From positions 3,643,501 through 3,707,500 of the forward strand of contig NZ_CP046535.1 in NCBI RefSeq assembly GCF_009739515.1: a stretch of DNA of 64,000 bases. Direction: 5' to 3'. The first letter of the stretch is position 1. Each line of letters begins with the position of its first letter. Source of the DNA: Sphingomonas profundi (lineage in GTDB: Bacteria; Pseudomonadota; Alphaproteobacteria; Sphingomonadales; Sphingomonadaceae). Shown in pieces: positions 10,331 through 52,212 of this stretch. The notes below the pieces were generated by a model, which was not told the DNA's origin, ran no database searches, and saw nothing but the letters and a program-made list of their open reading frames with translations. The position numbers were made by a program, and so were the translations under genes.

Positions 10331-10331
10331 C

Positions 10332-13517: not shown

Positions 13518-13534
13518 GTCAACCACTTTACTAA
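13518..13534 (+). promoter_or_regulatory. operator-like element in the ADH/ALDH divergent promoter
   Basis: GTCAACCACTTTACTAA lies between the divergent alcohol and aldehyde dehydrogenase genes. It resembles GTCAACCTGTTTACAAG (complement of 32019-32035) and GTAAACGTGTTTACAAG (20984-21000). Which regulator binds is unknown; the MarR protein encoded at 34282 is a candidate. Confidence 0.4.
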
Positions 13535-13592
13535 CTTTCGGGTGACGGGTAGGATGATGCGCAACGACAACAGATTGTTCGAGGATGCCGAG

Positions 13593-17535: not shown

Positions 17536-17539
17536 CCGA

Positions 17540-20891: not shown

Positions 20892-20983
20892 CATCATCCT
20901 CTCCCATTTCCTGACGCGCCGGTTGGCCCGGGCGCTCGCGCATGCCGAACTGTCGTCGGCTGTGATCTTGGTCGTACCTGTAC

Positions 20984-21000
20984 GTAAACGTGTTTACAAG
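20984..21000 (-). promoter_or_regulatory. inverted repeat upstream of TonB receptor gene
   Basis: GTAAAC-GT-GTTTAC (20984-20997) is a perfect 6-base inverted repeat with 2-base centre, followed by AAG. The 17-base unit differs at only two positions from GTCAACCTGTTTACAAG in the 31968-32083 divergent promoter. It lies about 95 bases upstream of the receptor start, a reasonable place for an operator. Confidence 0.5.
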
Positions 21001-26817: not shown

Positions 26818-26828
26818 GGGTGTCGTCC

Positions 26829-28013: not shown

Positions 28014-28879
28014 TCTCCGACGGTGGCCAGCGTGCGCCTGGCGGCCTTGAGATGGGGGATGTCGTACATCTTGCCGCCGATGCCGAGCGTGCCGGCATCC
28101 GGCTGCGCGGCAAAGGCGTCGACGATCAGGCGCGCCTCCGCGATCTCCGCGTCGGACGGCGAGAAGCAGCGGTTGATCGTGGCGACCTGATCGGGGTGGA
28201 TCGCTATCCGGCCGACGAAGCCGTCGCGGCGGGCGTCCCGGCACGATCGCTCCAGGCCGGCATCGTCGCGGAAATCGGCGTAGAGCGTGTCCAGCGGCGC
28301 GACGCCGGCCGATGCGGCGGCGAACAGGCATTGCGCGCGGGCGACCTGATAGGGAAAGGTCCAGCTTCCGTCGTCGCCCTTGTTGCCGGTCGCGCCGATC
28401 GCGGCGGCGAGATCCTCGGCGCCCCAGGTCAACCCGACGAGGCGCGGATGCACCGGCGCGTAGCTGCCGAGCGCGAACATCGCCGCCGGCGTCTCTGTCG
28501 CGACGACCATCAGCCTGACGGTGCCGATCGCCATCCCCGCTTTCTGCTCCAGCGCGTCGAGATAGTGGCCGATCTGTGCGATATCGTGGGCGCCATTGGC
28601 CTTGGGGATCAGCAGGCCGTCGAGGCCCGGCTTCACCACCGCCGCCATGTCCGCCAGCGTCAGCCCGGTATCGAACGGATTGACCCGCACGAAGAAGGCG
28701 AAATCGCGGGGCGCGGTGTCGTCCAGCAGCGTGGCCACCGTCGCGCGGGCCTCGTCCTTGCGCGACGGCGCCACCGCATCCTCCAGATCGAGGATCAGCA
28801 CGTCGGCACCGATGCCGCGGGCCTTGGCGAACTTGCGTTCGCTGTCGCCCGGCACGAACAGGAGCGAACGCAGCTTCAT
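28010..28879 (-). CDS. CitE-like CoA-ester lyase (HpcH/HpaI aldolase family)
   Basis: 289 residues, starting MKLRSLLFVPG as in citrate lyase beta subunits and malyl-CoA lyases. Mg-binding and catalytic segments: DLEDAVAP, ATETPAAMF (Glu ligand) and LTWGAEDLAAAIG (Asp ligand). Such enzymes reversibly cleave or form 3-hydroxy-dicarboxyl-CoA thioesters or hydrolyse malyl-CoA. ATG at 28879 overlaps the MaoC stop; an upstream ATG at 28921 would extend into that gene. Directly following a mesaconyl-hydratase-type MaoC, it may cleave a hydrated short dicarboxyl-CoA product. Confidence 0.9.
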   Translation of the reverse strand: MKLRSLLFVPGDSERKFAKARGIGADVLILDLEDAVAPSRKDEARATVATLLDDTAPRDFAFFVRVNPFDTGLTLADMAAVVKPGLDGLLIPKANGAHDIAQIGHYLDALEQKAGMAIGTVRLMVVATETPAAMFALGSYAPVHPRLVGLTWGAEDLAAAIGATGNKGDDGSWTFPYQVARAQCLFAAASAGVAPLDTLYADFRDDAGLERSCRDARRDGFVGRIAIHPDQVATINRCFSPSDAEIAEARLIVDAFAAQPDAGTLGIGGKMYDIPHLKAARRTLATVGE

Positions 28880-29328
28880 GCCGGCCGCGCCAGCATCAGC
28901 GCGGATCGCGTCGTCCGGCACACCACCTCGTCATGCTGGTTGAGCCCGACATGCTCGAAGGTGACGATGCCCTGACCCGGGCGAGACTTGCTTGGCCGCA
29001 GCGCCTTGACGGTGGTTTCGGAGCGGATCGTGTCGCCCGAGAATACCGGCTTCGGGAACACCGTATCCGTCATCCCGAGATTGGCGACGGTGGTGCCGAA
29101 CGTCGTATCCTGCACCGACAGGCCGACCACCAGGCCGAGCGTGAAGATCGAGTTCATCAGCGGCCTGCCGAACTCCGTCGAGGCCGCATAGGCGTGGTCG
29201 ATATGGATCGCCGCCGGATTGTACGTGAGCGACGAGAACAGCATGTTGTCCATGTCGGTCACGGTGCGGCGGATCTCGTGGACGAACACGCGCCCGATCT
29301 CGAATTGCTCGAAATACAGTCCTGCCAA
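28876..29328 (-). CDS. MaoC-family hydratase, mesaconyl-CoA-hydratase type
   Basis: 150-residue single hot-dog domain. DNMLFSSLTYNPAAIHIDHA is the N-x-x-x-H-x-D hydratase signature in the form typical of mesaconyl-CoA hydratases and partners of CitE-like lyases; TEFGRPLMNSIFTLGL follows. It would add water to an enoyl-CoA. Its gene is located directly ahead of the CitE-like lyase gene with an ATGA overlap, and 9 bases below the thiolase stop, all in one operon. Confidence 0.9.
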   Translation of the reverse strand: MAGLYFEQFEIGRVFVHEIRRTVTDMDNMLFSSLTYNPAAIHIDHAYAASTEFGRPLMNSIFTLGLVVGLSVQDTTFGTTVANLGMTDTVFPKPVFSGDTIRSETTVKALRPSKSRPGQGIVTFEHVGLNQHDEVVCRTTRSALMLARPA

Positions 29329-29337
29329 GACAACCTC

Positions 29338-30537
29338 CTAGTTCAGACGACCGAGAATCGAGACGGCGGCCACGCTGTTGTACGGCGACCCCCCCAGATT
29401 GTGAGTCAGCCCAAGATCGACCTTGCCCCGCTGGCGGGCGCCGGCACGATCCTGAAGCTGGGTGTAGACTTCATACGCCATGCGCAACCCGGATGCGCCG
29501 ACCGGGTGGCCGAAGCATTTCAGGCCGCCGTCTATCTGGCAGGGCAGGGCGCCCTCGCTGTCATACCGGCCATCGAGAATGTCGAAGATCGCGCGGCCGC
29601 CATCGGAGAGGCCAAGATCCTCCATCGTCACCAGTTCGGTGATCGAGAAGCAGTCGTGCACTTCGGTCAGCGAAAGCTCGGCGCGGGGATCGGCGATGCC
29701 CGCCTCGGCATAGGCGCGCCTGGCGGCGACCTGCGTGTTGCGCACCGAGGCGCCGTCCCATTCGCCATATTGCATCTCCCAGCCATTGCTGGCCGAAAGC
29801 TGGATCGCCTTGATCGTCACCGGATTCATGCGACCGAGCGAACGCGCGATCTCCGGCGTCGTCACGATCGCGCACGCCGCACCGTCGGACACGCCGCAGC
29901 AATCGAACAGGCCGAGCGGATCGGCGATCATCGGCGCGTTCAGGATCCTGTCCATCTCGACGGGCTTCTGCAGATGCGCCTTGGCGTTGCGGGCGCCGTT
30001 CTGGTGGCTCTTCCATGAAACATGCGCCATCGCGCGCTTGAGGTCGGCAGGGTCGACGCCGTGTCGCGCGGTATAGGCGCCGGCCAACTGGGCGAAGGTG
30101 CCGGGCGCCGATCCGTACGGCATCCACAGATCGTTCGCGAGGCCCTTGGTGCGCAGCGGCAGGCCGCCATAGCCCGTGTCCTTGAGCTTCTCGACGCCGA
30201 GTGCCAGCGCGATGTCGACGGCCCCCGCCGCCACCGCATAGGCCGCCGCGCGCAACGCCTCGGTGCCGGTCGCGCACATATTCTCGACGCGCGAGACCGG
30301 GATCGTCTCCAGCCGCAGTGCGTGCGCCAGCGGCAGCGCGCTGTTGCCGACGTTGATGTCGTCCAGCGCGTTGCCCACCCACGCCGCTTCGATCCGGCTG
30401 CGTTCGATGCCGGCGTCGGCGATCGCCTCGGCGAACGCGTCGACCATCAGATCCTCCGGCCCCTTGTCCCAATGTTCGCCGAACGCGGTGCAGCCCATGC
30501 CGATGATCGCGACGCGATCCTTGATCCCGGTGGCCAT
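29338..30537 (-). CDS. SCPx/Ltp-type thiolase, copy 1
   Basis: 399 residues. Nucleophile Cys in ENMCATGTEAL (about residue 92), HDCFSITELVTMEDLGL, and GGLKCFGHPVGASGLRM with the catalytic His. It resembles lipid-transfer-protein thiolases such as Ltp2, which work with an OB-fold (DUF35) partner, and indeed the next gene upstream encodes an HMG-CoA-synthase-like/OB-fold fusion, 2 bases away. It may thus be a thiolase or retro-aldolase acting on a branched or ring-derived acyl-CoA. A close paralogue with the same partner is at 61886-63088. Confidence 0.92.
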   Translation of the reverse strand: MATGIKDRVAIIGMGCTAFGEHWDKGPEDLMVDAFAEAIADAGIERSRIEAAWVGNALDDINVGNSALPLAHALRLETIPVSRVENMCATGTEALRAAAYAVAAGAVDIALALGVEKLKDTGYGGLPLRTKGLANDLWMPYGSAPGTFAQLAGAYTARHGVDPADLKRAMAHVSWKSHQNGARNAKAHLQKPVEMDRILNAPMIADPLGLFDCCGVSDGAACAIVTTPEIARSLGRMNPVTIKAIQLSASNGWEMQYGEWDGASVRNTQVAARRAYAEAGIADPRAELSLTEVHDCFSITELVTMEDLGLSDGGRAIFDILDGRYDSEGALPCQIDGGLKCFGHPVGASGLRMAYEVYTQLQDRAGARQRGKVDLGLTHNLGGSPYNSVAAVSILGRLN

Positions 30538-30539
30538 GA

Positions 30540-31967
30540 TCAGTTCTCCAGCAAAGGCCGCGCGGCGGGCGCGGCCTTCCAGAAATAGGTGCGGAAACCG
30601 CGCCGGCGATCGATCGACTTGATCCGCAGCCGCATCCGCAGCGCGTCGCCGACGGTGAAGCCGGCCGCATCCGCGTCGACCAGCTCCATCGGCAGACGCG
30701 CGCCATTGTCGAACTGGACAAGCCCGAACCAGAAGGGCGGATCGGGCGTGTAGTTGAGACGATCGGCAGTGACCGAAACGAGCGTCGCCGGGCAATCGGC
30801 CAGCCGCACGTCCGTCATCGCTTCCGGGCCGGCCGCGCCGGGTCGAACGGGGATGCGGCTCTTGGGGAATTGCACGTTGCCCGATTCGTCCCGACCGCCG
30901 ATGAAGCCGATCGTATCGCGGCCATGCCGTTCCAGAACGGTGCCCTGCGCCTTCTGCTCGGTCTCCGAGCGGACGCCCCAGTCGAGATCGATCTCCCCGG
31001 TCAGCGACAGGAAGCGCACATAGTCCTGCGTGACAAGGCCGGAACCCAGCATCGCCACGGCGTCCGCCGCGCCCGTCACCTCTCCGGTGATCTCGAAGAC
31101 GAGCGCGTCGCAGCCCGAGCCGAACCCCGCGACAAGGACGATGTCGCCGGGCGAGGATGCGGCGAAGGCCAGTGCCATCGCATACAGGATGTGCGCCGCG
31201 CCGAGATCGCCCGCCTGCGCATCGAGCGCGCCGGCATGGTTCGTGGCGGTCATGCCGGTGAGGCTGGCGATGTCCCGCCACATGCCGCCAAGCGGTTCGT
31301 GGACGGCCGCGTGGATCACCGCCGACGGCTCGATCCCCGCCGCCGCGCAGGCCGCACGGATCGTCGGCGCGATCACCTCGCGCGCGGCGGTCTCGCGCAC
31401 GAAGCGTTCCTCATAGGCGTATGGCGTCGGCATCTCGCGCGAGGCGTACATGTCGACCAGATCGTGCGACAGGCTGGCATGGCCGATCAGCCGCGCGCCA
31501 CCGGCATCTCCGACCCGCGCGGCGGCGCCGCCGTCGCCGAAGGCGAGATGTTGCGGGCTGCCGGCGCGAGCGGGGCGCCGTTCGCCGGCAGCGACAACCA
31601 CTTCACCATTTCCCAGCAGCGCGTCGAGCAATGCCGACACGGCACAGCGCCGGGACCCGGCGACGTCGTTCGATCGCGTCGTGGCGGGCCATCCCAGCGC
31701 CTCCAGCGCGATCGCCGCGTGCGCGCGCTCGTAGAAGGGGGCAGAGGTCGAGGCGAAGGCGAATCGATCGATCGGCCGATCGCCGCCGAGTCGCCGCGCG
31801 GCCTCGACAGCGAGCGTGAGCGCATCCTCGTCCCATCCGGCGATCGCCCGGCGCCCGCCGCCGCGGCCGCCAAGGCCGGCGAATCGCAGCGCCTTCGACG
31901 CCGCCGCCCGATCGAGACGGAGCATCGGCAGATATCCGCCGACGGCCGATATGAATCTCTCGGTCAT
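30540..31967 (-). CDS. HMG-CoA-synthase/KAS III-like domain fused to OB-fold (DUF35), copy 1
   Basis: 475 residues. About 1-330 form a thiolase-fold domain like HMG-CoA synthases (FASTSAPFYERAHAAIALEALG, active-site Cys in AGSRRCAVSALLDALL, His in HAAVHEP, GFGSGCDALVFEITG). About 345-475 form an OB-fold ending QFDNGARLPMELVDADAAGF and RTYFWKA. The four zinc-ribbon cysteines expected before the OB fold are missing (GGRDESGNVQFPKS), unlike copy 2 at 63100. ATG at 31967. First gene of the leftward operon; probably in complex with the thiolase, as in archaeal thiolase/HMGS/DUF35 assemblies. Confidence 0.87.
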   Translation of the reverse strand: MTERFISAVGGYLPMLRLDRAAASKALRFAGLGGRGGGRRAIAGWDEDALTLAVEAARRLGGDRPIDRFAFASTSAPFYERAHAAIALEALGWPATTRSNDVAGSRRCAVSALLDALLGNGEVVVAAGERRPARAGSPQHLAFGDGGAAARVGDAGGARLIGHASLSHDLVDMYASREMPTPYAYEERFVRETAAREVIAPTIRAACAAAGIEPSAVIHAAVHEPLGGMWRDIASLTGMTATNHAGALDAQAGDLGAAHILYAMALAFAASSPGDIVLVAGFGSGCDALVFEITGEVTGAADAVAMLGSGLVTQDYVRFLSLTGEIDLDWGVRSETEQKAQGTVLERHGRDTIGFIGGRDESGNVQFPKSRIPVRPGAAGPEAMTDVRLADCPATLVSVTADRLNYTPDPPFWFGLVQFDNGARLPMELVDADAAGFTVGDALRMRLRIKSIDRRRGFRTYFWKAAPAARPLLEN

Positions 31968-32018
31968 CCTCACCGCTTCTGCTGTTCGACACCCGCTTGT
32001 TGACAGGATCGAACATAC

Positions 32019-32035
32019 TTGTAAACAGGTTGACG
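32019..32035 (-). promoter_or_regulatory. operator-like element in the central divergent promoter
   Basis: CTTGTAAACAGGTTGAC (plus strand) lies in the 116-base region 31968-32083 between the two large divergent operons. Its complement GTCAACCTGTTTACAAG matches the inverted repeat at 20984-21000 at 15 of 17 positions. A related CTTGTTGACAGG begins at 31997. One regulator controlling both operons and the TonB receptor gene would fit. Confidence 0.5.
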
Positions 32036-32083
32036 GACGGAAGCGATGGCGTTCAGCCGCGCACCGGGAGGGGACTGCCACAC

Positions 32084-32989
32084 GTGAGCATCGCTATTTT
32101 TCTGGATGACGTGCTGGCCGGCAAGTCGGTCCTGGTGACAGGCGGCGGTTCCGGGCTCGGCAAGGAGATCGCCAGGGCGCTCGTCGCCAAGGGCGCGGTC
32201 GTGCATATCTGCGGGCGCCGGGCGAGCGTGCTCGAAGCGGCCGCGGCGGAGATCGGGGGCGCGGTGCACTGGCACGTCTGCGATATACGCGATGCCGACC
32301 AGGTCGACCAGTTGATGGACGCCATCTGGGCGGTGGGCCCGTTGACCTGCCTCGTCAACAACGCCGCGGCGAACTTCATCGCGCCGACCAAGGACCTGAG
32401 CCCACGCGGATTTCGCGCGGTGACGTCGACCGTGATGGACGGCAGCTTCCACGTCACGCTCGCCGCCGGCAAGCGCTGGATCGCCGAGGGCATCGCCGGA
32501 TCGGTCGTCAGCAATCTGGTGACATGGGTATGGACGGGATCGGCCTTCGTCGTGCCCTCCGCGATGGCGAAGACCGCGCTTCATGCCATGACGATGTCGC
32601 TTGCGGTGGAGTGGGGACGCTACGGCATCCGGCTCAACGCCACCGCTCCAGGGCCGTTTCCGACCGAGAGCGCCTGGGAGAAGCTCAGTCCCATTCCCGG
32701 CGCGAAATCGAGCGCGACGAGCGACGATACCGTTCCGCTCGGCCGGTTCGGGGAAATGGCCGAGCTGCAGAACCTGATCGTCTTCCTGCTGTCCGACGGT
32801 TGCAGATACCTGACCGGCCAGACGATCGCGATCGACGGCGGGCAGCATCTCGCCGGCCCCGGCACGTTCGCCGACCTCACGAGCATGACCGACACCCAGT
32901 GGAACGATGCGCGTGACGCCATCCGCCGCTCGACCGAACGGGACAAGGCCGAGCGCGCCGCCCCTGCCAACGAAGGAACAGTCCGGTGA
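32084..32989 (+). CDS. 2,4-dienoyl-CoA-reductase-like SDR with Tyr replaced by Trp
   Basis: 301 residues from a GTG at 32084 with GGGAGGGGAC upstream. TGGGSGLGKEIA binds NADP(H); NNAAANF and VVPSAMAKTALHAMTMSLAVEW match the mitochondrial/bacterial 2,4-dienoyl-CoA reductase DECR group, keeping its Asn, Ser and Lys. The position of the DECR1 active-site Tyr (in IYAETGS, from memory) is Trp here (TWVWTGS). It may be a reductase with altered proton donor, or may have lost that activity. First gene of the rightward operon, overlapping the next gene by GTGA. Confidence 0.88.
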   Translation: MSIAIFLDDVLAGKSVLVTGGGSGLGKEIARALVAKGAVVHICGRRASVLEAAAAEIGGAVHWHVCDIRDADQVDQLMDAIWAVGPLTCLVNNAAANFIAPTKDLSPRGFRAVTSTVMDGSFHVTLAAGKRWIAEGIAGSVVSNLVTWVWTGSAFVVPSAMAKTALHAMTMSLAVEWGRYGIRLNATAPGPFPTESAWEKLSPIPGAKSSATSDDTVPLGRFGEMAELQNLIVFLLSDGCRYLTGQTIAIDGGQHLAGPGTFADLTSMTDTQWNDARDAIRRSTERDKAERAAPANEGTVR

Positions 32990-34182
32990 TCGAACGCCGC
33001 ATCTTCAACGAAGAACATGATATGTGGCGCGAGACGGTTCGCCGTTTCGTCGAGAAGGAGATCGTGCCCTACCACGCGCAGTGGGAAGAAGACGGCATCG
33101 TCCCGCGCGAGCTGTGGCTGAAGGCCGGCGAGGCCGGGCTGCTGTGCTGCACCGTGCCGGAGGAATATGGCGGGCTGGGCGCCGACTATCTGTTCGACGT
33201 GGTCGTGTTCGAGGAATTGTGGCGGGTCGGCGCCAGCGGCCCGGGGTTCCTGATCCATACCGATCTCGTCGCGACCTACATCAAGAGCTTCGGCACGGAG
33301 GAGCAGAAGCGCCAGTGGCTGCCGCGCATGGTGAAGGGTGAGGCGATCGGCTCGCTAGGCATGACCGAGCCGCACGCCGGCAGCGATCTGAAGGCGGTGA
33401 AGACCCGCGCGGTGCGCGATCCCAATGCCGCGCCCGGCGACAACGACGCCGATTTCATCATCGACGGGCAGAAGGTGTTCATCTCGAACGGCCAGCTGTG
33501 CGACGTCCTCGTCCTCGCGACGAAGACCGACAGCGCGGCGGGAGCGAATGGCGTGTCCCTGTTCCTGGTGGATGCGACGACACCCGGCTTCAATCGCGGC
33601 CAGAACCTCGAGAAGCTGGGCATGAAGGCGCAGGATACGTCGGAGCTGTTCTTCTCGGACATGCGCGTGCCGGCCTCGGCGATGCTTGGGGCCGAGGGTC
33701 AGGGTTTCAAGCTGATGATGACCAAGCTGTCGCAGGAGCGGCTGGCGCAGGCGATCCGATCGGCGACCGTCATCGAGGAGATGATCCAGTGGACGGTCGA
33801 CTATACCGCCGAGCGCCAGGCGTTCGGCCAGTCGATCGGCGACTTCCAGAACACCCAGTTCGTACTGGCGGATCTCAAGGCGCGTTCGGTGATGGCGCGC
33901 GTCTTCACCGATCGCTGCATCGAACTGTTCATGGCCGGCGAGCTCGACTCGGTCGATGCCGCGATGGCCAAGATGACGACGGCCGAACTGCACTGCGAAA
34001 CCGCCGACAAGTGCCTCCAGCTGTTCGGCGGCTGGGGATATATGTGGGAATATCCGATCTGCCGGGCCTATGCCGATGCGCGGATCGTCAAGATCGCGGG
34101 TGGCTCGATCGAGATCATGAAGACGATCATCGGCCGCGACATGTTCAAGGGCAAGCTCAACCCCAAGCCCAAGGCGGCTTGA
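32986..34182 (+). CDS. acyl-CoA dehydrogenase
   Basis: 398 residues from a GTG overlapping the SDR stop. GMTEPHAGSDLKAVKTRAV, GQKVFISNGQ, LSQERLAQAI (candidate helix-G base) and LFGGWGYMWEYPICRAYADARI. In cyclohexanecarboxylate degradation an acyl-CoA dehydrogenase (AliB, BadJ) introduces the ring double bond before BadK/BadH/BadI; with badH and badI relatives 0.6-3 kb downstream in the same direction, this is the best candidate for that step here. Sequence alone does not separate it from isovaleryl-type enzymes. Confidence 0.92.
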   Translation: MIERRIFNEEHDMWRETVRRFVEKEIVPYHAQWEEDGIVPRELWLKAGEAGLLCCTVPEEYGGLGADYLFDVVVFEELWRVGASGPGFLIHTDLVATYIKSFGTEEQKRQWLPRMVKGEAIGSLGMTEPHAGSDLKAVKTRAVRDPNAAPGDNDADFIIDGQKVFISNGQLCDVLVLATKTDSAAGANGVSLFLVDATTPGFNRGQNLEKLGMKAQDTSELFFSDMRVPASAMLGAEGQGFKLMMTKLSQERLAQAIRSATVIEEMIQWTVDYTAERQAFGQSIGDFQNTQFVLADLKARSVMARVFTDRCIELFMAGELDSVDAAMAKMTTAELHCETADKCLQLFGGWGYMWEYPICRAYADARIVKIAGGSIEIMKTIIGRDMFKGKLNPKPKAA

Positions 34183-34281
34183 GGCCGGTTCATGATAGGC
34201 GCAAGGCACCCTCTTTTGGCCGCGTCGCGCGGCGACGTTTCGGGTAACAGCCTCTGGCTGCGCTCGATCAGGGGAGATGTC

Positions 34282-34746
34282 GTGCCCAAGGATCTTAATA
34301 CCAACCTTCGTTTCGGTTTCCTCATTCACGATGTCTCGCGGCTGCGCCGGATCGTCGTCGATCGCGCGCTCAAGCCCGTCGGCATCACCCGCTCCCAATG
34401 GTGGGTGCTTGCCTTCCTGTCGCGCCGCGACGGAATGACCCAGACCGCGCTGGCCGCCGATCTCGACGTCACCAAGGTCGGCATGGGCGGCCTGATCGAG
34501 CGCATGGAAAGCGCGGGTTATGTCGAGCGCCGCGCCGATCCGCGCGATGGCCGGATCAGGCGCGTCTACCTCACTTCGGCCGGCGCGAAGCTGGTCAACA
34601 CGATCCGCGTCAACGTCGGCGAAGTGGAGGACGAGATCCTGTCCGACGTTTCCGACGAGGCGATGCAGACTACCGCCGAAACGCTGGTGACGCTCAAGCG
34701 CAAGCTGCTCGCCATGTCGGGCGGCGACACGGACGATGACGATTGA
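34282..34746 (+). CDS. MarR-family transcriptional regulator
   Basis: 154 residues from a GTG at 34282 with GGGGAG 6 bases upstream; an ATG 90 bases earlier would give an unusual leader. The winged helix contains QTALAADLDVTKVGMGGLIERM and ESAGYVERRADPRDGRIRRVYL. BadR, which controls cyclohexanecarboxylate genes in Rhodopseudomonas palustris, is also of the MarR type and lies near badHI. This gene sits inside the operon just before the badH relative, so it may sense a ring acyl-CoA and control the island. Confidence 0.9.
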   Translation: MPKDLNTNLRFGFLIHDVSRLRRIVVDRALKPVGITRSQWWVLAFLSRRDGMTQTALAADLDVTKVGMGGLIERMESAGYVERRADPRDGRIRRVYLTSAGAKLVNTIRVNVGEVEDEILSDVSDEAMQTTAETLVTLKRKLLAMSGGDTDDDD

Positions 34747-34760
34747 CAGGAGGATGAAGC

Positions 34761-35519
34761 GTGCAGGGACTTGAAGGCAAGGTCGCCATCGTCACGGGCG
34801 GCGGGCAGGGGATCGGTCGCGCGCTGACGCTGCGGCTGGCGGCCGAGGGGTGCAAGGTCGCGATCTTCGATCTGAAGCCGGAGGCGGGCGAGGAGACCGC
34901 CGGGCTGGCCGGCGATGCGACCGTCAAGACCTATGCCGTCGATGTCGGCGATCAGGAGCAGGTGCAGGCGGCCGTCGCCGCTGTCGAGGCGGATCTCGGC
35001 CCGGTCTGGGCGCTGGTGAACAATGCGGGCTGGGATCAGCCGGCCCCGTTCCTCGCCACCGAGAAGCCGCTGTGGGACAAGATCATCCGCATCAACCTGT
35101 ATGGCGCGCTCTACACGCATCATGCGGTGGCACCGCTGATGGTGGCACGCGGCGGCGGGCGCATCATCAATATCGCGTCGGACGCGGCGCGCGTCGGCAC
35201 CAGCACCGAGGCCGTCTATTCGGCGTGCAAGGGCGGCGTCATCAGCTTCACCAAGTCGATCGCGCGCGAACTGGCCTCCAAGAACGTGCTGCTCAACGTC
35301 GTCTGCCCCGGCCCGACGAACACGCCGATGATGGCATCGGTGCTCGGCGAAGGCGAGCGCGCGGTGAAGTGGAAGGACGCCATGGTGCGCGGCATCCCGC
35401 TGAAGCGGATGGGCGAGCCTGACGACTATGCCGGCATCGTCGCGTTCCTGGCGTCCGACGATGCGAGCTTCATCACCGGGCAGACCTTCTCGGTCGCCGG
35501 CGGCATGAACATGATCTGA
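34761..35519 (+). CDS. badH: 2-hydroxycyclohexanecarboxyl-CoA dehydrogenase-like SDR (BadH)
   Basis: 252-residue SDR from a GTG at 34761 behind AGGAGG. TGGGQGIGRAL loop, NNAGWDQPAPF, IASDAARVGTSTEAVYSACKGG (S140, Y153, K157), VVCPGPTNTPMM and FITGQTFSVAGG. NNAGWD and SDAARVG are features I associate with BadH, which oxidises 2-hydroxycyclohexanecarboxyl-CoA to the 2-keto compound with NAD+. The badI relative follows one short gene later, so the assignment is supported by context. The ring could carry substituents; the exact substrate is inference. Confidence 0.82.
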   Translation: MQGLEGKVAIVTGGGQGIGRALTLRLAAEGCKVAIFDLKPEAGEETAGLAGDATVKTYAVDVGDQEQVQAAVAAVEADLGPVWALVNNAGWDQPAPFLATEKPLWDKIIRINLYGALYTHHAVAPLMVARGGGRIINIASDAARVGTSTEAVYSACKGGVISFTKSIARELASKNVLLNVVCPGPTNTPMMASVLGEGERAVKWKDAMVRGIPLKRMGEPDDYAGIVAFLASDDASFITGQTFSVAGGMNMI

Positions 35520-35526
35520 TCGTACC

Positions 35527-35940
35527 GTGGCGGAGGATGTTCCCGACGGATTTGTACGTGCCGATCCCGGACCCGGCTTCGGGGCCGATTTCGGCGCGGT
35601 CTATCTCGACCGGGGCCGTGGCCGGATCGGCTTCCGCGTGACCGCGCGGCACGGCAATCCCGTCGGCGCCTGCCACGGCGGCGCGATGGCGACGTTCGCC
35701 GACATGCAGCTCATGGCGATCCGTGCGGGGGCCGAGGAAGGCCGGCCGCACAGCCCGACGATCAGCCTGTCGCTCGATTATCTGGCGCCGGCGCCGGTCG
35801 GCGCGTGGGTGGAGGCGGCGGTCACGCTCGTCAGGGCGACCCGAACGATGCTGTTCACCCAGGCGGTGATGACGGTCGACGGCGAGGCCGTCGCGCGCGC
35901 CACCGCGATCTACAAGAATCCCGAGAGGAAAGGAGCCTGA
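35527..35940 (+). CDS. PaaI-type hot-dog thioesterase
   Basis: 137 residues from a GTG at 35527. GNPVGACHGGAMATFADMQLM is the hot-dog signature of PaaI/4-hydroxybenzoyl-CoA-thioesterase-like enzymes (catalytic Asp in ADMQ-type position, HGG loop), then SLSLDYLAPAPVGAWVEA. It hydrolyses acyl-CoA thioesters; in catabolic clusters such enzymes commonly rescue CoA from dead-end products. It lies between the badH and badI relatives with gaps of 7 and 1 bases. Confidence 0.87.
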   Translation: MAEDVPDGFVRADPGPGFGADFGAVYLDRGRGRIGFRVTARHGNPVGACHGGAMATFADMQLMAIRAGAEEGRPHSPTISLSLDYLAPAPVGAWVEAAVTLVRATRTMLFTQAVMTVDGEAVARATAIYKNPERKGA

Positions 35941-35941
35941 C

Positions 35942-36733
35942 ATGGCCGCACCGGAGTTCGAAGACATCATCTACGAGGTGCGCAAGCGCGCCGCCTGGAT
36001 CATCATCAACCGCCCTAAGCTGTACAATGCGTTCCGCGCGCAGACCATCGAGGAGCTGATCGCGGCGTTCAAGCTCGCCGCCGACGACAAAGGCGTGTCC
36101 TCGGTCGTGCTCACCGGCGCGGGGGACAAGGCGTTCTGCACCGGCGGCGACCAGTCCGCGCACGAGGGGCAGTATGACGGGCGCGGCATCGTCGGCCTGC
36201 CGATCGACGAGTTGCAGTCGATCATCCGCGACATCCCCAAGCCGGTGATCGCCCGGGTCAACGGCTTCGCGATCGGCGGCGGCAACGTGTTCGCCACGCT
36301 CTGCGATCTCACCATCGCCGCCGACACCGCCAAGATGGGCCAGGTCGGCCCGAAGGTCGGCTCGGTCGATGGCGGCTGGGGCACGGCGCTGCTGGCGCGT
36401 CACGTCGGCGACAAGAAGGCGCGCGAGATCTGGTTTCTCAACGAGCAATATACCGCGCAGCAGGCGCTGGAGATGGGCCTCGTCAACAAGGTCGTGCCCG
36501 CAGCCGAACTGGACGCCGCGGTCGACGCGTGGACCGACACGATCGGCGAACGCTCGCCGACGGCGCTGGCGCTGGCCAAGCGCTCGTTCAACGCCGACAG
36601 CGAGAATATCCGGGGGATCAGCCAGATGGCGCTCAACGCCGTCAAGCTGTTCTACGACACCGCCGAATCGAAAGAGGGTGTCAACGCCTTCAACGAACGC
36701 CGCAAGCCCGACTTTCACGCTTTCGTGAAGTAA
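35942..36733 (+). CDS. badI: 2-ketocyclohexanecarboxyl-CoA hydrolase-like ring-opening enzyme (BadI)
   Basis: 263-residue crotonase-superfamily protein. GAGDKAFCTGGDQSAHEG, YDGRGIVGLP, IRDIPKPVIARVNGFAIGGG, QVGPKVGSVDGGWGTALLAR and HVGDKKAREIWFLNEQY closely follow BadI, which opens the ring of 2-ketocyclohexanecarboxyl-CoA to pimeloyl-CoA; menaquinone MenB is the other relative with GPKVGS-type blocks, but no menaquinone genes are near. Together with the badH relative it defines ring cleavage in this island. ATG at 35942, one base after the thioesterase stop. Confidence 0.87.
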   Translation: MAAPEFEDIIYEVRKRAAWIIINRPKLYNAFRAQTIEELIAAFKLAADDKGVSSVVLTGAGDKAFCTGGDQSAHEGQYDGRGIVGLPIDELQSIIRDIPKPVIARVNGFAIGGGNVFATLCDLTIAADTAKMGQVGPKVGSVDGGWGTALLARHVGDKKAREIWFLNEQYTAQQALEMGLVNKVVPAAELDAAVDAWTDTIGERSPTALALAKRSFNADSENIRGISQMALNAVKLFYDTAESKEGVNAFNERRKPDFHAFVK

Positions 36734-36753
36734 GCGACGGTAGGCGCCGGCCC

Positions 36754-37989
36754 GTGCCGCAGCGGATCGAACCGGACGGGCTGGCGGCGGTGCTGCCGCC
36801 GGGTGGGCTGACCCTGGTGTCGGCCTGCTCGGCGGAGTCGACGGTGCTTGCCGATGCGGTGATGGCCGCGGGCGATGCGCTTGGGCCAATGACGTTCAGC
36901 GGCATCTTCGTCGGCGGCCTCAACCGGCAGACCTGGCTTGCGAACGATCGCTGCCGGGTGCTGACATTCTTCCTGACGCCCGAACTGCGGGCGGTGGCTG
37001 ATCGCGTCGAGTTCCTGCCGCTCTGCTATCGGGATATCCTGGCGGAACTGCGTCGGCGCAAGCCCGCCGCGGCGCTGTTCATGTGTTCGCCGCCCGATGC
37101 CGACGGGATGTGCAGCTTCGGCACGGAGGTGGCCTTCATCGCCGACATGTGGCGCGACGTGCCCGTTCGGATCGCGCACATCAACCCGCTGATGCCGCGG
37201 ACATCGGGCGATCCCGGCATCCCCTTCGCTAGCCTCACCGCCTATATCGATGCCGGGCAGCCGTTGGCCTGCCTGCCCGCAGCGCCCGCCGACGCGACAG
37301 CGGCGGCGATCGCCGGCCATGTCGCGCCGTTCGTGCGCGACGGGGCGACGATCCAGACGGGCCTGGGCAAGATTCCCGATGCGGTGCTGCGCGCGCTGGT
37401 CGACCGGCGGGCGTTGCGCATCCACACTGGCCTGATCGGCGACGGCGTCCTCGCGCTGATGGAGAGCGGCGCGATCAGCGATCCCGGCGCCGCCACGGTC
37501 GGCGTCGCGATCGGCAGCGAGCGGCTCTACGCCGCGCTCGGCGATCCGGTCTTCCGGTTCCGCCCCGTGTCGGTGACGCATGGGCAGGACATATTGTCGA
37601 CGATCGACGATCTGGTGACGATCAACTCGGCGATCGAGGTGGATCTGTTCGGCCAGGCCTATGCCGAACTGACGCCCAAAGGCCTGATGTCGGGGCCGGG
37701 CGGCGCTTCCGATTTCGCGCGCGGCGCGCGCAACGGCGGCGTTCGGATCGTCGCGCTGCCCTCGGACGCCGCCAACGGACAAATCGCCCGGATCGTCACG
37801 CCGGGAAGGGCAAACGGTCCGGTCTCGCTCGGCCGGATGGATATCGACGTGGTGGTGACCGAACATGGCGCCGCCGACCTGCGCGCGCTGACCTACGAGG
37901 CCCGCGCGCAGGCGCTCATCGCCATCGCACCGCCCGCCCATCGCGATCGTCTGCACGCCGAATGGGCCGATTACTCGAAGCGACTTTAA
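36754..37989 (+). CDS. acetyl-CoA hydrolase/4-hydroxybutyrate CoA-transferase-family protein
   Basis: 411 residues from a GTG at 36754 (weak GGTAGG upstream); the frame is open earlier but would overlap the badI relative. VQTGLGKIPDAV-like segment (IQTGLGKIPDAVLRAL), HTGLIGDGVLALMESG, and GGASDFARGARNGG with TEHGAADLRALTYEARAQALI identify the family, which moves CoA between an acyl-CoA and a free acid through a glutamyl-CoA intermediate. It could activate an acid substrate or release a free acid product while conserving the thioester. Confidence 0.87.
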   Translation: MPQRIEPDGLAAVLPPGGLTLVSACSAESTVLADAVMAAGDALGPMTFSGIFVGGLNRQTWLANDRCRVLTFFLTPELRAVADRVEFLPLCYRDILAELRRRKPAAALFMCSPPDADGMCSFGTEVAFIADMWRDVPVRIAHINPLMPRTSGDPGIPFASLTAYIDAGQPLACLPAAPADATAAAIAGHVAPFVRDGATIQTGLGKIPDAVLRALVDRRALRIHTGLIGDGVLALMESGAISDPGAATVGVAIGSERLYAALGDPVFRFRPVSVTHGQDILSTIDDLVTINSAIEVDLFGQAYAELTPKGLMSGPGGASDFARGARNGGVRIVALPSDAANGQIARIVTPGRANGPVSLGRMDIDVVVTEHGAADLRALTYEARAQALIAIAPPAHRDRLHAEWADYSKRL

Positions 37990-38004
37990 GGACAGGAGGC
38001 CGCC

Positions 38005-38934
38005 ATGGCATCGAACAAGGTCATCATCTCCTGCGCCGTCACCGGCTCGATCCATACGCCCTCGATGTCGCCGCACCTGCCCGTCACCGCGCAGGAAATC
38101 GCCGAGTCGGCGCTCGGCGCGGCGGCGGCCGGGGCCGCAATCGTCCACCTCCATGCGCGTAATCCGGAGGACGGCCGGCCGGACCAGAGCCCGGAGGCGT
38201 TCGCGCCGTTCCTCAAGGTGATCAAGCAATCGTCCGACGTCGTCGTCAACCTGACGACGGGCGGGTCGCCGTACATGTCGGTCGAGGAGCGCGTCCGCCC
38301 CGCCGAGCATTGGCAGCCGGAGGTCGCGAGCCTCAACATGGGATCGATGAACTTCGGCCTGTTCCCGATGCTCAGGCGGTACAAGGAATTCAAGCATGCG
38401 TGGGAGCCGGCGATGCTGGAAGGGTCGCACGACCTCGTCTTCCGCAACAGCTTCAAGGACATCCGCTACGCGCTCGACACGCTGAACGCGACCGGCGCGC
38501 GCTATGAGTTCGAGTGTTACGACACCAGCCATCTCCACAACCTCCATTATTTCTGGAGCGAGGGCCTGGTGAAGGCGCCTTTGTTCATCCAGACGTGCTT
38601 CGGCCTGCTCGGCGGCATCGGCGCGCATCCCGAGGAGGTGCTGCACATGAAGCGCACCGCCGATCGCCTGTTCGGCGATGATTATCGCTGGTCGGTGCTG
38701 GGCGCGGGCGCATCGCAGATGAAGGTCGCGGCGCAGGCGGCGGCGATGGGCGGCCATGTCCGCGTCGGGCTGGAGGACAATCTCTGGCTCGACAAGGGCG
38801 TGCTCGCGCCGACCAACGCGGCGCAGGTGACGCGCGTGCGGCAGATTCTCGAAGGACTGGGCCTCGCGATCGCGTCGCCCGACGAAGCCCGCGAGATCCT
38901 CGACCTGAAGGGCGGGGACCGGGTCGGCTTCTGA
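38005..38934 (+). CDS. BKACE enzyme (beta-keto acid cleavage, DUF849)
   Basis: 309 residues. Zinc-site HLHARNP (H48, H50), NLTTGGSPYMSVEER and VGLEDNLWLDKG are hallmarks of the beta-keto-acid cleavage enzyme family, in which Kce (3-keto-5-aminohexanoate cleavage) is the founder. These enzymes condense a beta-keto acid with acetyl-CoA to give acetoacetate and a new acyl-CoA. Good AGGAGG at 37995. Next to the CoA-transferase, it may shorten a keto acid from ring opening. The TGA overlaps the next ATG (TGATG). Confidence 0.9.
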   Translation: MASNKVIISCAVTGSIHTPSMSPHLPVTAQEIAESALGAAAAGAAIVHLHARNPEDGRPDQSPEAFAPFLKVIKQSSDVVVNLTTGGSPYMSVEERVRPAEHWQPEVASLNMGSMNFGLFPMLRRYKEFKHAWEPAMLEGSHDLVFRNSFKDIRYALDTLNATGARYEFECYDTSHLHNLHYFWSEGLVKAPLFIQTCFGLLGGIGAHPEEVLHMKRTADRLFGDDYRWSVLGAGASQMKVAAQAAAMGGHVRVGLEDNLWLDKGVLAPTNAAQVTRVRQILEGLGLAIASPDEAREILDLKGGDRVGF

Positions 38935-40322
38935 TGCGCCCGCTCGCCGACACGCCCGCGCTCCATCCCGAGGACCGGCCGGCGCTGGTGCATGGCGACC
39001 GGCGCTGGACGTTCGGCGATCTCGATGCGCGCTCGGCGGCGTGGGCGCGCGCGCTGGTGGCACGCGGGGTGCGCGGCGACGATCTGGTCGCCTTCTCGCT
39101 GCCCAACGGCCCCGACTTCATCGCGCTCACCTTCGCGATCTATCGCGCCGGCGCGACGCCCGCGCCGATCTCCGGCAAGCTCCCCGCTGCCGAGCGCGAC
39201 GCGATCCTCGCTGTCATGCAACCACGACTGTTCGTCGACGCCGTGAACCTGCCCGGGGAGCCGTCACCCGGATACGAACCGCGTCCCGTGGCCATGTCGT
39301 GGAAGGCCTGCACCAGCGGCGGCAGCACGGGGCGGCCCAAGGTGATCGTCGATGGCCGGCCCGCCGCGTTCGCCGAAGGCAGCGAGTTCATCGCCATCCC
39401 CGCGAACGAGGCCGTGCTCGTCCCCGGCCCGCTGTACCACAATGCGCCGTTCAGCGCGGCCGTGTTCGCGCTCTGGCGCGGCAACACGCTGGTGACGATG
39501 GACCGCTTCGATGCCGAGGGCGCGTTGCGGCTGATCGCACGCGAGCATGTCGTCTGGTCGATCATGGTGCCGACCATGCTGCACCGGATCCGCAAGCTTC
39601 CCGCCAGCGTCCGCGCGGCGATCGACCTGTCGCGCTGGCGCACCGTCGTCCACACCGCCGCGACGATGCCGGACTGGCTGAAGCGCGACTGGATCGACTG
39701 GCGCGGCGCGGACCATATCTGGGAAGTGTATGGGGCGACCGAGGGGCTGGTGCGCTGCTGGATCGGCGGCGCCGAATGGCTCGAACGTCCCGGCTCGGTG
39801 GGCCGCCCGGTCGGCGGCGCCCGTCTGCGCATCCTGGACGATCGAGGCGCGGACGTGCCGACCGGCACGATCGGCGAGGTGTTCGCGATGCCGGCGGGCG
39901 GCCCGCGATCGAGCTACCGCTATATCGGCGCCGAAAGCCGGGCTACGGCCGACGGCTGGGAGTCGGTCGGCGACTGCGGTCGGGTGGACGCGGACGGCTA
40001 TCTGTACCTCGCCGATCGCCGGACCGATCTGATCATATCGGGCGGGGTCAACATCTGGCCGGCCGAGGTGGAGGCCGCCCTGCTCCGCCATCCCGAGATC
40101 CTGTCTTGCGCGGTCTTCGGCGAAGCCGACGACGATCTCGGCCAGCGCGTCCATGCTGTCGTGCAGGCGCGCGATCCGGTGACGCTCGACGAGGTAAGCG
40201 CCTTTCTACGCAGTCACCTGGCGCGAGAGAAGATCCCGCGGGCGATCACCTGCCGCACCGATGCGGTGCGCGACGATGCCGGCAAGTTCCGCAAGCCCGT
40301 CTCCCAGAAGGTCGCACCATGA
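38934..40322 (+). CDS. AMP-forming acyl-CoA ligase, bile-acid-CoA-ligase-like
   Basis: 462 residues, short for an ANL ligase. P-loop TSGGSTGRPKVIVDG near residues 124-138, a form seen in bile-acid and other bulky-substrate CoA ligases; VYGATEG, SVGDCGRVDADGYLYLADR and the C-terminal lysine region DDAGKFRK. It activates a carboxylate with ATP and CoA. The second ligase of the island, suggesting two acids (for example parent acid and ring-opened product). Starts in the BKACE stop and overlaps the next gene (ATGA). Confidence 0.9.
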   Translation: MRPLADTPALHPEDRPALVHGDRRWTFGDLDARSAAWARALVARGVRGDDLVAFSLPNGPDFIALTFAIYRAGATPAPISGKLPAAERDAILAVMQPRLFVDAVNLPGEPSPGYEPRPVAMSWKACTSGGSTGRPKVIVDGRPAAFAEGSEFIAIPANEAVLVPGPLYHNAPFSAAVFALWRGNTLVTMDRFDAEGALRLIAREHVVWSIMVPTMLHRIRKLPASVRAAIDLSRWRTVVHTAATMPDWLKRDWIDWRGADHIWEVYGATEGLVRCWIGGAEWLERPGSVGRPVGGARLRILDDRGADVPTGTIGEVFAMPAGGPRSSYRYIGAESRATADGWESVGDCGRVDADGYLYLADRRTDLIISGGVNIWPAEVEAALLRHPEILSCAVFGEADDDLGQRVHAVVQARDPVTLDEVSAFLRSHLAREKIPRAITCRTDAVRDDAGKFRKPVSQKVAP

Positions 40323-41602
40323 ACGATCAGCCAGTCCTCCAGCAGTTTCGGATCGAGCATCGCGACAACGGGCTCGTCCATCTCGTGTTCGATTGTCCGG
40401 GGCGGACGATGAACGTCTTTTCCGAGGCCGCGATCGCCGAATTCGGCGCGTTCGCGCACTGGCTCGCGGATGCGGACGTCAGGGGCGTCGTGGTCCGGTC
40501 CGGCAAAGCCAACGCCTTCTGCGCCGGCGCGGATCTCTCCGAACTCGGTGTCGCGTACGACATGATCATGAAGGCGCCGCCGCGGGCGCGGTTCGGCATC
40601 GCGTTCGACCACTTCTTTCGCCTCAGCAGCGCGATCCGCGCGCTTGAGACGGCCGGCAAGCCGGTTGCGGCGGCGATCGCCGGGCTGGCGCTGGGTGGCG
40701 GCTGCGAACTTGCGCTCGGTGCGCATCATCGCGTGCTGGTCGATGATCCGAAGATCGGCCTGGGCCTGCCCGAATCGCTGGTCGGCCTGCTGCCCGGGGC
40801 GGGCGGTACGCAGCGCCTGCCGAGGCTGATCGGGTGCGAGGCCGCGCTGCCGATCCTGCTGGATGGCCGGCGACTGGCCGGCACGGCGGCGCTTGAGGCG
40901 GGGCTGGTCGACGCGCTCGCCGCGCCGGGCGAGGAGATCGCACGGGCCGAGGCCTGGCTGTTGTCCGCCCCCGAACCATCCCAGCCATGGGATCGCGACG
41001 GCTGGGTGCCGGCCCAGTCGGCGACCGTCAGTGCCGCCATCGCTCCGTGGCGCGAGCGGATCCTTGCCGAGACGCTCGGCCACTATCCCGCGCCGCTCGC
41101 CATACTGGATTGCGTGGAGTTCGGCCTGCCGCAGGTCTTCGACGGCGCGATCCGCAGCGAGATGGCGATCTTCGCTCATCTCATCCAGCGCGAGGAGCCG
41201 CGCAACATGATCCAGACGCTGTTTCTCGGGAAGACCGATCACGATCGGCTGGTCCGGAAGGATGCGCTGCCGGGCTTCGTGGCCGAGGCGGTCAGCGCCG
41301 CGCAGGCGGCACTGGAGGGCGTCGACGGCAGTGCCCACAGCCTCGCCGGTTTCGCCGGGACGATGAAGGCGCCCCCCGTGCGCTCGCGGGCGACATCCGG
41401 CTACTGGATCGACGGCGATATGCCGGAAGCGGCGGCCGCGCGTCATTGTCTCGACGTGATCGGCGGCGCCGTCCTGCCCATCGCCACGACGCTGACGCCG
41501 GAGGAGCGGCGCCTGGTCGATTACGCGATCGTCCAGGCGACCGGCTATCCCGCCTATCTCGGCGGGCCGCTGGCCTATGCGGCGCGCGCCTCTGCTCCAT
41601 GA
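40319..41602 (+). CDS. FadB/FadJ-like protein with hydratase domain but no NAD-binding dehydrogenase domain
   Basis: 427 residues. About 1-190 are an active-looking enoyl-CoA hydratase domain with both glutamates (GGGCELALG and LPESLVGLLPGAGGTQRLPR). About 230-310 match the linker of FadB/FadJ (HYPAPLAILDCVEFGLPQ, NMIQTLFLGKTDHDRL). In FadB/J a Rossmann GxGxxG dehydrogenase domain follows; here none is present, only a ~110-residue tail ending ATGYPAYLGGPLAYA, which looks like the last FadB segment. Total is about 60 percent of FadB length. No frameshift is apparent, so the compact form seems genuine. Last gene of the operon. Confidence 0.85.
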   Translation: MNDQPVLQQFRIEHRDNGLVHLVFDCPGRTMNVFSEAAIAEFGAFAHWLADADVRGVVVRSGKANAFCAGADLSELGVAYDMIMKAPPRARFGIAFDHFFRLSSAIRALETAGKPVAAAIAGLALGGGCELALGAHHRVLVDDPKIGLGLPESLVGLLPGAGGTQRLPRLIGCEAALPILLDGRRLAGTAALEAGLVDALAAPGEEIARAEAWLLSAPEPSQPWDRDGWVPAQSATVSAAIAPWRERILAETLGHYPAPLAILDCVEFGLPQVFDGAIRSEMAIFAHLIQREEPRNMIQTLFLGKTDHDRLVRKDALPGFVAEAVSAAQAALEGVDGSAHSLAGFAGTMKAPPVRSRATSGYWIDGDMPEAAAARHCLDVIGGAVLPIATTLTPEERRLVDYAIVQATGYPAYLGGPLAYAARASAP

Positions 41603-41800
41603 TCGTGCGCCACCTGTCGGCTTGCCGGTCTTCCCGGCCATCTTCTCGGCTGCCTTGGTCTCGCGCTTCGTCGCCGTGCGATCGGCCAAGACCGCGCCCA
41701 TGATCCCCATCATGCGGAGACGTCGACGCGCTCGCCTGTCCTCGACGGAAACAGCGGGGAGACGGCACGTTCAGCGATCATGGCAGGAGCGGAGCGACCG
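41603..41800. other. gap between catabolic operon and topoisomerase IB gene
   Basis: 198 bases with no convincing gene. A minus-strand frame from 41713 reads MMGIMGAVLADRTATKRE and runs into the FadB-like gene without a ribosome-binding site; I do not call it. The topoisomerase ribosome-binding site (GGAG) is at 41786-41792. Confidence 0.4.
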
Positions 41801-48836: not shown

Positions 48837-48858
48837 GGATTTTCCGTCACTGCTATTG

Positions 48859-52209: not shown

Positions 52210-52212
52210 CCG

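Follow-up and report, generated by a model that had tools for sequence, protein, structure and literature searches.

A divergent ring-cleavage cluster in Sphingomonas profundi and its probable part in the catabolism of monoterpenoid-type acids

A stretch of 64,000 nucleotides from the chromosome of Sphingomonas profundi (contig NZ_CP046535.1, positions 3,643,501 to 3,707,500; hereafter the window, whose own numbering is used unless otherwise stated) carries, at 34761-36733, genes for a BadH-like short-chain dehydrogenase/reductase (SDR) and a BadI-like ring-opening hydrolase. The reading favoured here is that this pair performs the ring-opening step of a pathway of the mrc type, as described from Castellaniella defragrans 65Phen, and that the compound opened is an alicyclic acid, probably of p-menthane monoterpenoid type, perillic acid being an example. 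An initial annotation had recognised the pair as such; what becomes evident is that the pair is real and that the feature is far larger, being a cluster of ca 16.6 kb (24971-41602) arranged as two divergent operons. The substrate is deduced from the company which the pair keeps: a monoterpenoid-type acid is the best substrate class because the neighbouring genes are far closer to the mrc genes than to those for cyclohexanecarboxylate.

The BadH-hotdog-BadI trio and its cluster

The two genes are separated, as the initial annotation had stated, by a single thioesterase gene, which is of the hotdog (PaaI-like) kind, and the three form a tandem series of open reading frames on the plus strand (Table 1). 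Among the NCBIfam models, the first protein is matched best by BadH (TIGR03206, 328.4 bits, the next model giving 217.8) and the third by BadI (TIGR03210, 410.8 bits), in keeping with the names first given, with both scores lying below the curated equivalog cut-offs of 431.2 and 467.6, respectively. The SDR is 56% identical to the BadH/MrcD-like protein of Azoarcus KH32C vs 46% to an ali-type BadH. The BadI-like protein is unique of its kind among 27 matches in the genome, the next crotonase being 36% identical to it, and the order BadH-hotdog-BadI is retained in five relatives.

The plus-strand operon (32084-41602) comprises an SDR, an acyl-CoA dehydrogenase, a MarR regulator, the trio, a CoA-transferase, a BKACE, an acyl-CoA ligase and a long crotonase. 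The minus-strand operon (from 31967 to 24971) comprises a KAS III-like protein, a thiolase, a MaoC hydratase, a CoA-ester lyase, an acyl-CoA dehydrogenase, a further SDR and a nitronate-monooxygenase-type protein. The two-armed arrangement is also found in two members of the family (G035, where it is rearranged, and G088) and on plasmids of Sphingopyxis macrogoltabida 203N and Novosphingobium resinovorum SA1, with a less complete version in Rhodobacteraceae QY30; the nearest named relatives are indeed sphingomonads, as had been surmised. In the family at large, a match to the BadI model at E <= 1e-70 is present in 6 of the 149 genomes searched, the window's own included. Four of these six (the own genome, G035, G070 and G088) hold a BadI of the window type, the other three proteins being 84-88% identical to it, and another member of the genus, G094, has no match at this threshold.

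Comparison with the mrc system was made against the Azoarcus KH32C counterparts of the Castellaniella proteins, the BadH and BadI of KH32C being reported as 85% and 88% identical to MrcD and MrcE (PMC4109377). Identities to the KH32C cluster are 80% for the acyl-CoA dehydrogenase of the minus-strand operon, 74% for the MrcB-like acyl-CoA dehydrogenase, 72% for the SDR, 68% for MaoC, 66% for BadI, 56% for both BadH and the CoA-ester lyase, 42% (over 313 aa) for MrcF and 41% for the KAS III-like protein, such that counterparts of MrcB, MrcD, MrcE and MrcF are jointly present. Orthologues of AliA and AliB are absent among the window proteins compared, the best identity to AliA/AliB of a cyclohexanecarboxylate locus being 33%. 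Judged by these identities, the window genes fit the mrc set far better than the bad-ali set. In Castellaniella, growth on limonene is lost in insertion mutants of mrcF and mrcC, and MrcDEF are expressed on alpha-phellandrene (PMC4109377).

The same association is seen when BadI loci are taken together. Typing of 96 such loci by their neighbours, with flanks mostly of 10 kb and many contigs shorter, gave 13 of mrc type, 38 of ali type and 45 others; two loci, L048 and L053, failed the first typing rule and were assigned to mrc by hand for their KH32C-like genes. A MaoC protein (at least 45% identity) is near BadI in 12 of the 13 mrc-type loci, in none of the ali-type and in two of the others, and a BKACE (at least 50%) in seven, none and none, respectively. 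The acyl-CoA dehydrogenase, lyase and KAS III-like proteins formed part of the typing rule, and their counts are therefore not independent. A separate observation concerns three actinobacterial loci (L096, L101 and L104, from Pseudonocardia and Gordonia), where an SDR near BadI is 62-64% identical to the dienoyl-reductase-type SDR of the window; these are possibly a third type of BadI cluster.

Two BadI trees, one of 99 rows and one of 70 of those 99 (long and near-duplicate rows removed), each with a single MenB, that of Escherichia coli, as outgroup, place the window protein directly. In the larger tree it falls in a clade of 13 alphaproteobacterial or unclassified-proteobacterial members, with a support of 98 in the Shimodaira-Hasegawa-like approximate likelihood ratio test (SH-aLRT); in the smaller, in a clade of 12 of like affiliation, from mrc-type or short-contig loci (bootstrap 100, SH-aLRT 99).

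A predicted route and the readings that compete with it

The island around the cluster most likely serves to take up a 4-substituted cyclohex(en)ecarboxylate of the perillic type, to activate it and open its ring, and then to degrade the product by way of a 3-substituted glutaryl-CoA, each reaction being predicted from homology. The TonB-dependent receptor would import the compound, the alcohol and aldehyde dehydrogenases would convert a ring-borne CH2OH to the acid, and the ligase at 8771-10438 would form the CoA ester. The steps which then lead to ring opening are modelled on MrcF-MrcD-MrcE: the MrcF-like crotonase (or the hydratase at 10332) would hydrate a ring double bond, which in a saturated acid would first be introduced by the acyl-CoA dehydrogenase at 11154; oxidation by the BadH-like SDR would then give the 2-keto ester, from which the BadI-like hydrolase would produce a 3-substituted pimelyl-CoA by opening the ring. 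One round of beta-oxidation would yield 3-R-glutaryl-CoA, which the dehydrogenase at 26829 and the MaoC hydratase could carry to a tertiary alcohol, to be cleaved by the CoA-ester lyase to acetyl-CoA and a beta-keto acid, R-CO-CH2-COOH. The route proposed for limonene likewise passes through 3-isopropenyl-glutaryl-CoA to a tertiary alcohol that is cleaved (PMC12583861). In that proposal the cleaving enzyme, LrcC, is a reverse HMG-CoA synthase, which on general thermodynamic grounds we judge less likely here than the CoA-ester lyase.

The last predicted step belongs to the BKACE. Enzymes of this family convert a beta-keto acid and acetyl-CoA to an acyl-CoA and acetoacetate (PMC11961710), and in the present case the products would be R-CO-CoA (methacrylyl-CoA if R is isopropenyl) and acetoacetate, the latter perhaps reactivated by the CoA-transferase or a ligase. 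The window protein passes the cut-off of 430 of model NF053538 with 529.3 bits. Its nearest solved structures, 8RIO and 8RIP, are of BKACE15 from Paracoccus denitrificans, which accepts beta-ketohexanoate, beta-ketopentanoate, 3,5-dioxohexanoate and 5-hydroxy-beta-ketohexanoate and whose physiological role is stated to be unknown (PMC11961710). Further BKACE paralogues occur in the genome at 2027446-2028339 and 3388100-3388990 (genome positions), the second within ca 20 kb of two P450 matches.

Several observations weigh against this assignment. The model matched by the window BKACE is that of a 3,5-dioxohexanoate enzyme, a designation that names no branched substrate, and 6 of the 13 mrc-type loci, including those of KH32C, Nevskia and Solimonas, lack a BKACE, such that it is no obligate part of the system. 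The MaoC pair MrcG/MrcH of KH32C finds no match among the window proteins compared (nor does the acetoacetyl-CoA synthetase of the mrc system). The aldehyde dehydrogenase and the ligase stand ca 10 kb from the core cluster, with unexplained genes between, and searches for P450, FA_desaturase and AlkB found no hydroxylase linked to the cluster in the own genome. Finally, the window BadI is 71% identical to an ali-type BadI, slightly above its 66% to that of KH32C, and the unconstrained trees keep the alpha- and beta/gammaproteobacterial mrc BadIs apart; a joint clade of the two is not rejected (approximately unbiased test, p-AU 0.777) and indeed scored higher. That the alphaproteobacterial clusters recruited their BadI separately, as the unconstrained trees hint, is for this reason not claimed.

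With regard to hydroxylases, the own genome has 11 P450 places (split pieces counted once) and two FA_desaturase-family places, none of them in the window, the nearest P450 found being ca 14 kb downstream of it. Nine of the 11 P450s, with frames picked by motif, are at most 32% identical to the P450 beside the G035 cluster, and nothing homologous to the AlkB of Sphingopyxis was found in those pieces of the own genome that were searched. In relatives the linkage does exist: an AlkB hydroxylase adjoins the cluster in two of them, and in Solimonas aquatica an AlkB (59%) is close to a BadI of mrc type.

Among the alternatives, it is rather improbable, yet the best placed of them, that the ring opened belongs to a larger terpenoid or to some other alicyclic compound (a sesqui- or diterpenoid, or one of the alpha-terpineol/oleuropeic acid type), R being bigger or hydroxylated. 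The island does contain DUF7064, phosphotransferase-like and several TonB genes with counterparts in Sphingopyxis, near whose cluster there are also a lipase, a P450 and a rubredoxin, and in the comparison with KH32C the BadH and BadI proteins are less conserved than are the dehydrogenases acting downstream, a pattern that a different ring substrate might produce. Against this, no gene links the cluster to a larger skeleton, and C10 monoterpenes are the substrates of the closest genetically studied cluster (PMC4109377).

A little less probable still is that the substrates are unsubstituted cyclohexanecarboxylate or simple naphthenic acids, degraded to pimelyl-CoA by a bad-ali system which has dispensed with AliA and AliB. 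In this regard, the 71% identity given above is to the BadI of an aliAB locus, the window clade joins a Rhodobacter-type ali clade with weak support (91/80), and acyl-CoA dehydrogenases of the genome itself match cyclohexanecarboxyl-CoA dehydrogenase models, below cut-off. AliA and AliB orthologues are, however, missing from the window, and a lyase/MaoC/acyl-CoA dehydrogenase module suited to a 3-substituted glutaryl-CoA would be needless for pimelyl-CoA and occurs in none of the 38 ali-type loci.

That the BadI-like protein is a ring-closing synthase of the MenB type or an ordinary hydratase, and the pair a chance assembly, is very improbable in spite of its 52% identity to E. coli MenB in the alignment and of the ten closest solved chains all being MenB proteins, since the BadI model scores 80-100 bits above the best two MenB models (these give 330.9 and 310.4 bits, neither reaching its cut-off of 380 or 342.7), in the 70-row tree a long branch sets E. 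coli MenB apart from every BadI row, and the gene order of the trio is kept in five relatives. On model scores and both trees together either identity is rejected, and the phylogenetic check proposed with the initial annotation accordingly groups the crotonase with BadI-type hydrolases.

The absence of a benzoyl-CoA reductase, originally noted for the window, extends to the whole genome, which is one closed contig of 4,538,634 bases: families PF06050 and PF01869, both detected in control genomes, each have no match in it, ruling out a hidden reductase of these two families. The initial annotation had also presented BadHI as best known from phototrophic benzoate/cyclohexanecarboxylate degradation, a view that is too narrow, since aerobic use outside benzoate catabolism is described for bad-ali of Aromatoleum CIB (PMC9795900) and BadHI-like enzymes for monoterpene catabolism by mrc of Castellaniella (PMC4109377); a ring-opening hydrolase is proposed for the limonene route as well (PMC12583861). 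Its suggestion of an alicyclic, possibly monoterpene-derived acid is borne out as to class by the mrc-like neighbours, perillic acid being a candidate.

The wider island and a shared palindrome

The alcohol and aldehyde dehydrogenases and the CoA ligases which had been listed beside the pair, together with the MarR gene, are all present, part of them in a block at 8.7-15 kb of the window. This block very probably belongs to the same pathway as the ring-cleavage cluster because its orthologues adjoin that cluster in relatives. In G035, orthologues of the ligase (67%), hydratase (64%), acyl-CoA dehydrogenase (74%) and aldehyde dehydrogenase (78%) are a few kb from it, in the further company of an AlkB (81% to that of Sphingopyxis) and a ferredoxin-reductase-like gene; G088 has those of the ligase (63%), hydratase (59%) and alcohol dehydrogenase (63%) following it; and near the Sphingopyxis cluster there are those of the ligase (69%), hydratase (67%) and aldehyde dehydrogenase (72%), with AlkB, a P450, a rubredoxin and TonB receptors.

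A 14-bp palindrome, GTAAAC-N2-GTTTAC, is found ahead of the TonB receptor gene, of the genes for the aldehyde and alcohol dehydrogenases and of the operons for ring cleavage. In the divergent promoter its conservation is directly visible, TTGACA followed by GTAAAC-N2-GYTNAC recurring in all six aligned loci, which were picked because their flanks contain this promoter. A matrix built from these six sites finds three places only in the window (32021, 20984 and 13518; mean of five shuffles, 0.0), and dinucleotide shuffles give an expectation of 0.50 strand-matches vs 5 observed. Exact matches to GTAAACNNGTTNAC occur at two places in the whole 4.54-Mb genome, both inside the window. With one mismatch allowed there are 14 strand hits genome-wide, not far above the 8 of a reversed-pattern control, and all seven places outside the window lie within mechanically called open reading frames, adding no further regulon genes. 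In other words, the case for the palindrome rests on the exact sites and their position, not on the one-mismatch count. Outside the matrix set, sites stand in Sphingopyxis before the hydratase/ligase operon (47916) and before the ferredoxin-reductase/aldehyde dehydrogenase genes (20719), the latter preceded by the same 14 letters as the 13518 copy, and in G035 at 28244, 35067 and 11823. Three of the six hits in Sphingopyxis (5684, 18306 and 20115) fall within annotated genes, and of nine other loci scanned QY30, KH32C and Variovorax gave weak sites only (13.7-15.4 bits) and six gave none. The MarR protein encoded at 34192 is likely to be the repressor acting at GTAAAC-N2-GTTTAC.

Table 1. Positions in the window of the genes and operator-like sites of the island (percentages are identities)
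Feature	Position	Strand	Evidence
Acyl-CoA ligase, predicted perillate-type	8771..10438	-	PF00501; 63-69% beside cluster in four relatives
Enoyl-CoA hydratase-family protein	10332..11123	-	PF00378; 59-67% beside cluster in four relatives
Acyl-CoA dehydrogenase	11154..12296	-	PF00441; 74% in G035 cluster
Zn alcohol dehydrogenase	12340..13443	-	PF08240; 63% orthologue beside cluster in G088
One-mismatch palindrome copy between alcohol (-) and aldehyde (+) dehydrogenase genes	13518..13531	.	Matrix scan
Aldehyde dehydrogenase	13542..15032 (ATG 13555 likely start)	+	PF00171; orthologues beside BadHI cluster, 72% Sphingopyxis, 78% G035
TonB-dependent receptor (plug domain)	18540..20897	-	PF07715
Perfect palindrome copy upstream of TonB receptor	20984..20997	.	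Matrix and exact search
Nitronate-monooxygenase/FabK-type FMN protein, end of cluster	24971..25906	-	PF03060; 72-83% in four relatives
SDR, predicted 3-hydroxyacyl-CoA dehydrogenase	25903..26835	-	72% to KH32C SDR
Acyl-CoA dehydrogenase, predicted 3-R-glutaryl-CoA dehydrogenase	26829..28007 (start estimated)	-	80% to KH32C; 85-87% in sphingomonads
CoA-ester lyase (HpcH/HpaI), RipC-like	28010..28921	-	PF03328; NF038242 173.6 bits, under cut-off 375; 56% to KH32C
MaoC hydratase, RipB/Ich-like	28876..29328	-	NF038241 134.5 bits, under cut-off 340; 68% to KH32C
Thiolase (Thiolase_C_1 type)	29338..30540	-	PF22691/PF00108
KAS III/HMG-CoA-synthase-like protein	30540..31967	-	Weak HMG-CoA synthase match, 70.6 bits, cut-off 244; 41% to KH32C
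Operator-like palindrome, divergent promoter	32021..32034	.	15 bp after TTGACA (32000-32005); 6/6 aligned loci
SDR, 2,4-dienoyl-CoA reductase type (MrcC-like)	32084..32989	+	NF005811 222.8 bits, under cut-off 318
Acyl-CoA dehydrogenase, MrcB-like	32986..34182	+	74% to Azoarcus KH32C
MarR regulator	34192..34746 (true start perhaps downstream of 34192)	+	67-70% in relatives
BadH/MrcD-like SDR, predicted 2-hydroxy-4-R-cyclohexanecarboxyl-CoA dehydrogenase (252 aa)	34761..35519	+	TIGR03206; KH32C identity
Hotdog (PaaI-like) thioesterase (137 aa)	35527..35940	+	TIGR00369 36.4 bits; 46-56% at same place in five relatives
BadI/MrcE-like ring-opening hydrolase, predicted (263 aa)	35942..36733	+	TIGR03210; tree
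Acetyl-CoA hydrolase/transferase-family CoA-transferase	36730..37989	+	PF13336; NCBIfam
BKACE	38005..38934	+	PF05853; NF053538; nearest solved 8RIO/8RIP
Acyl-CoA ligase (ANL)	38934..40322	+	PF00501; at this place only in Sphingopyxis among relatives compared
Long crotonase, MrcF-like, predicted ring-enoyl-CoA hydratase	40319..41602	+	42% over 313 aa to KH32C MrcF-like; NCBIfam

Other genes of the window are noted for completeness. DUF7064/DUF7065 genes, together with phosphotransferase (APH-like) genes, lie at 6749-7918, 16300-18511 and 21672-24427, the last pair having counterparts close to the ring-cleavage clusters of Sphingopyxis, Novosphingobium SA1 and G035 (phosphotransferase, 51-58%); the DUF genes are those initially called 'CrtC-like', and while the genes exist, Pfam does not bear out a CrtC identity. 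Left of the island, at 4271-6577, a molybdopterin oxidoreductase gene with a divergent LysR gene has no counterpart in the relatives compared; the Castellaniella monoterpene island likewise has a molybdopterin-binding oxidoreductase (PMC4109377). To the right, at 41780-53829, there are genes for topoisomerase IB, amidohydrolases, a Rieske oxygenase, an amino-acid permease and FAD amine oxidases, and those that were compared are not conserved alongside the island. Among the genes compared right of 41602, only a second thiolase and KAS III-like pair is well matched in relatives. This pair (61886-63927, minus strand), paralogous to that at 29338-31967, crosses the right edge of the window, and its thiolase is 72% identical to that of the Sphingopyxis cluster; it is perhaps a second related catabolic locus.

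As to what the island may mean, ring cleavage of cyclic monoterpenoids has been studied genetically in few bacteria, and for the branched glutaryl-CoA a fate has so far been proposed only. The present cluster offers an ordered gene set for that fate in alphaproteobacteria, borne on plasmids in several named records, and both its last step (the BKACE) and its operator are testable; in the open-access literature no description was found of a sphingomonad cluster of this type or of a BKACE in terpenoid catabolism. If the reading favoured here is true, a pathway could take the place of the 'enoyl-CoA hydratase-related' labels on such loci. One may tentatively go further and see in the island a transferable regulon, complete in itself, by which alphaproteobacteria deal with alicyclic terpenoid acids. 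Were this so, the BKACE family (DUF849) would gain a natural role in terpenoid catabolism.

Comparison with known systems

With the mrc cluster of Castellaniella and Azoarcus KH32C, the window shares BadH-, BadI- and MrcF-like enzymes, an MrcB-type acyl-CoA dehydrogenase, a candidate MrcC counterpart in the SDR of dienoyl-reductase type, and the triple of MaoC, CoA-ester lyase and acyl-CoA dehydrogenase; an acetyl-CoA hydrolase/transferase is described in the Castellaniella island too. It differs in adding a BKACE and the hotdog thioesterase.

The lower part of the cluster recalls RipABC of itaconate degradation, which combines a CoA-transferase, a MaoC hydratase and a CitE-like lyase, RipB and RipC making and cleaving a tertiary-alcohol CoA ester. 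The MaoC and lyase of the window have RipB and RipC as their best models, both below the Rip cut-offs, and its CoA-transferase may be related to RipA.

The lrc operon of the anaerobic limonene degrader Syntrophobacteraceae LiM6, likened here by its description, has an HMG-CoA-synthase-superfamily protein and a CoA-transferase, and the same route through 3-isopropenyl-glutaryl-CoA and a tertiary alcohol is proposed for it (PMC12583861). Activation in LiM6 is, in contrast, anaerobic, by a glycyl radical enzyme, and the scheme as published names neither a BKACE nor a CoA-ester lyase (PMC12583861).

The bad-ali systems of Rhodopseudomonas palustris and Aromatoleum CIB have in common with the window BadH, BadI and a MarR-type regulator (PMC9795900). 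BadR of that system recognises CAAN4TTG, its effector being a CoA ester of the pathway (PMC9795900). The letters differ from GTAAAC-N2-GTTTAC, and at the promoter of the window CAAN4TTG is, by eye, one letter off on each strand, site 32021 reading GTAAACAGGTTGAC; the layout nevertheless resembles that of the BadR operator, with an inverted repeat whose halves stand 2 bp apart close to a -35 box (PMC9795900). Unlike bad-ali, the window has no AliA or AliB, and it carries in addition the extra lower-pathway module.

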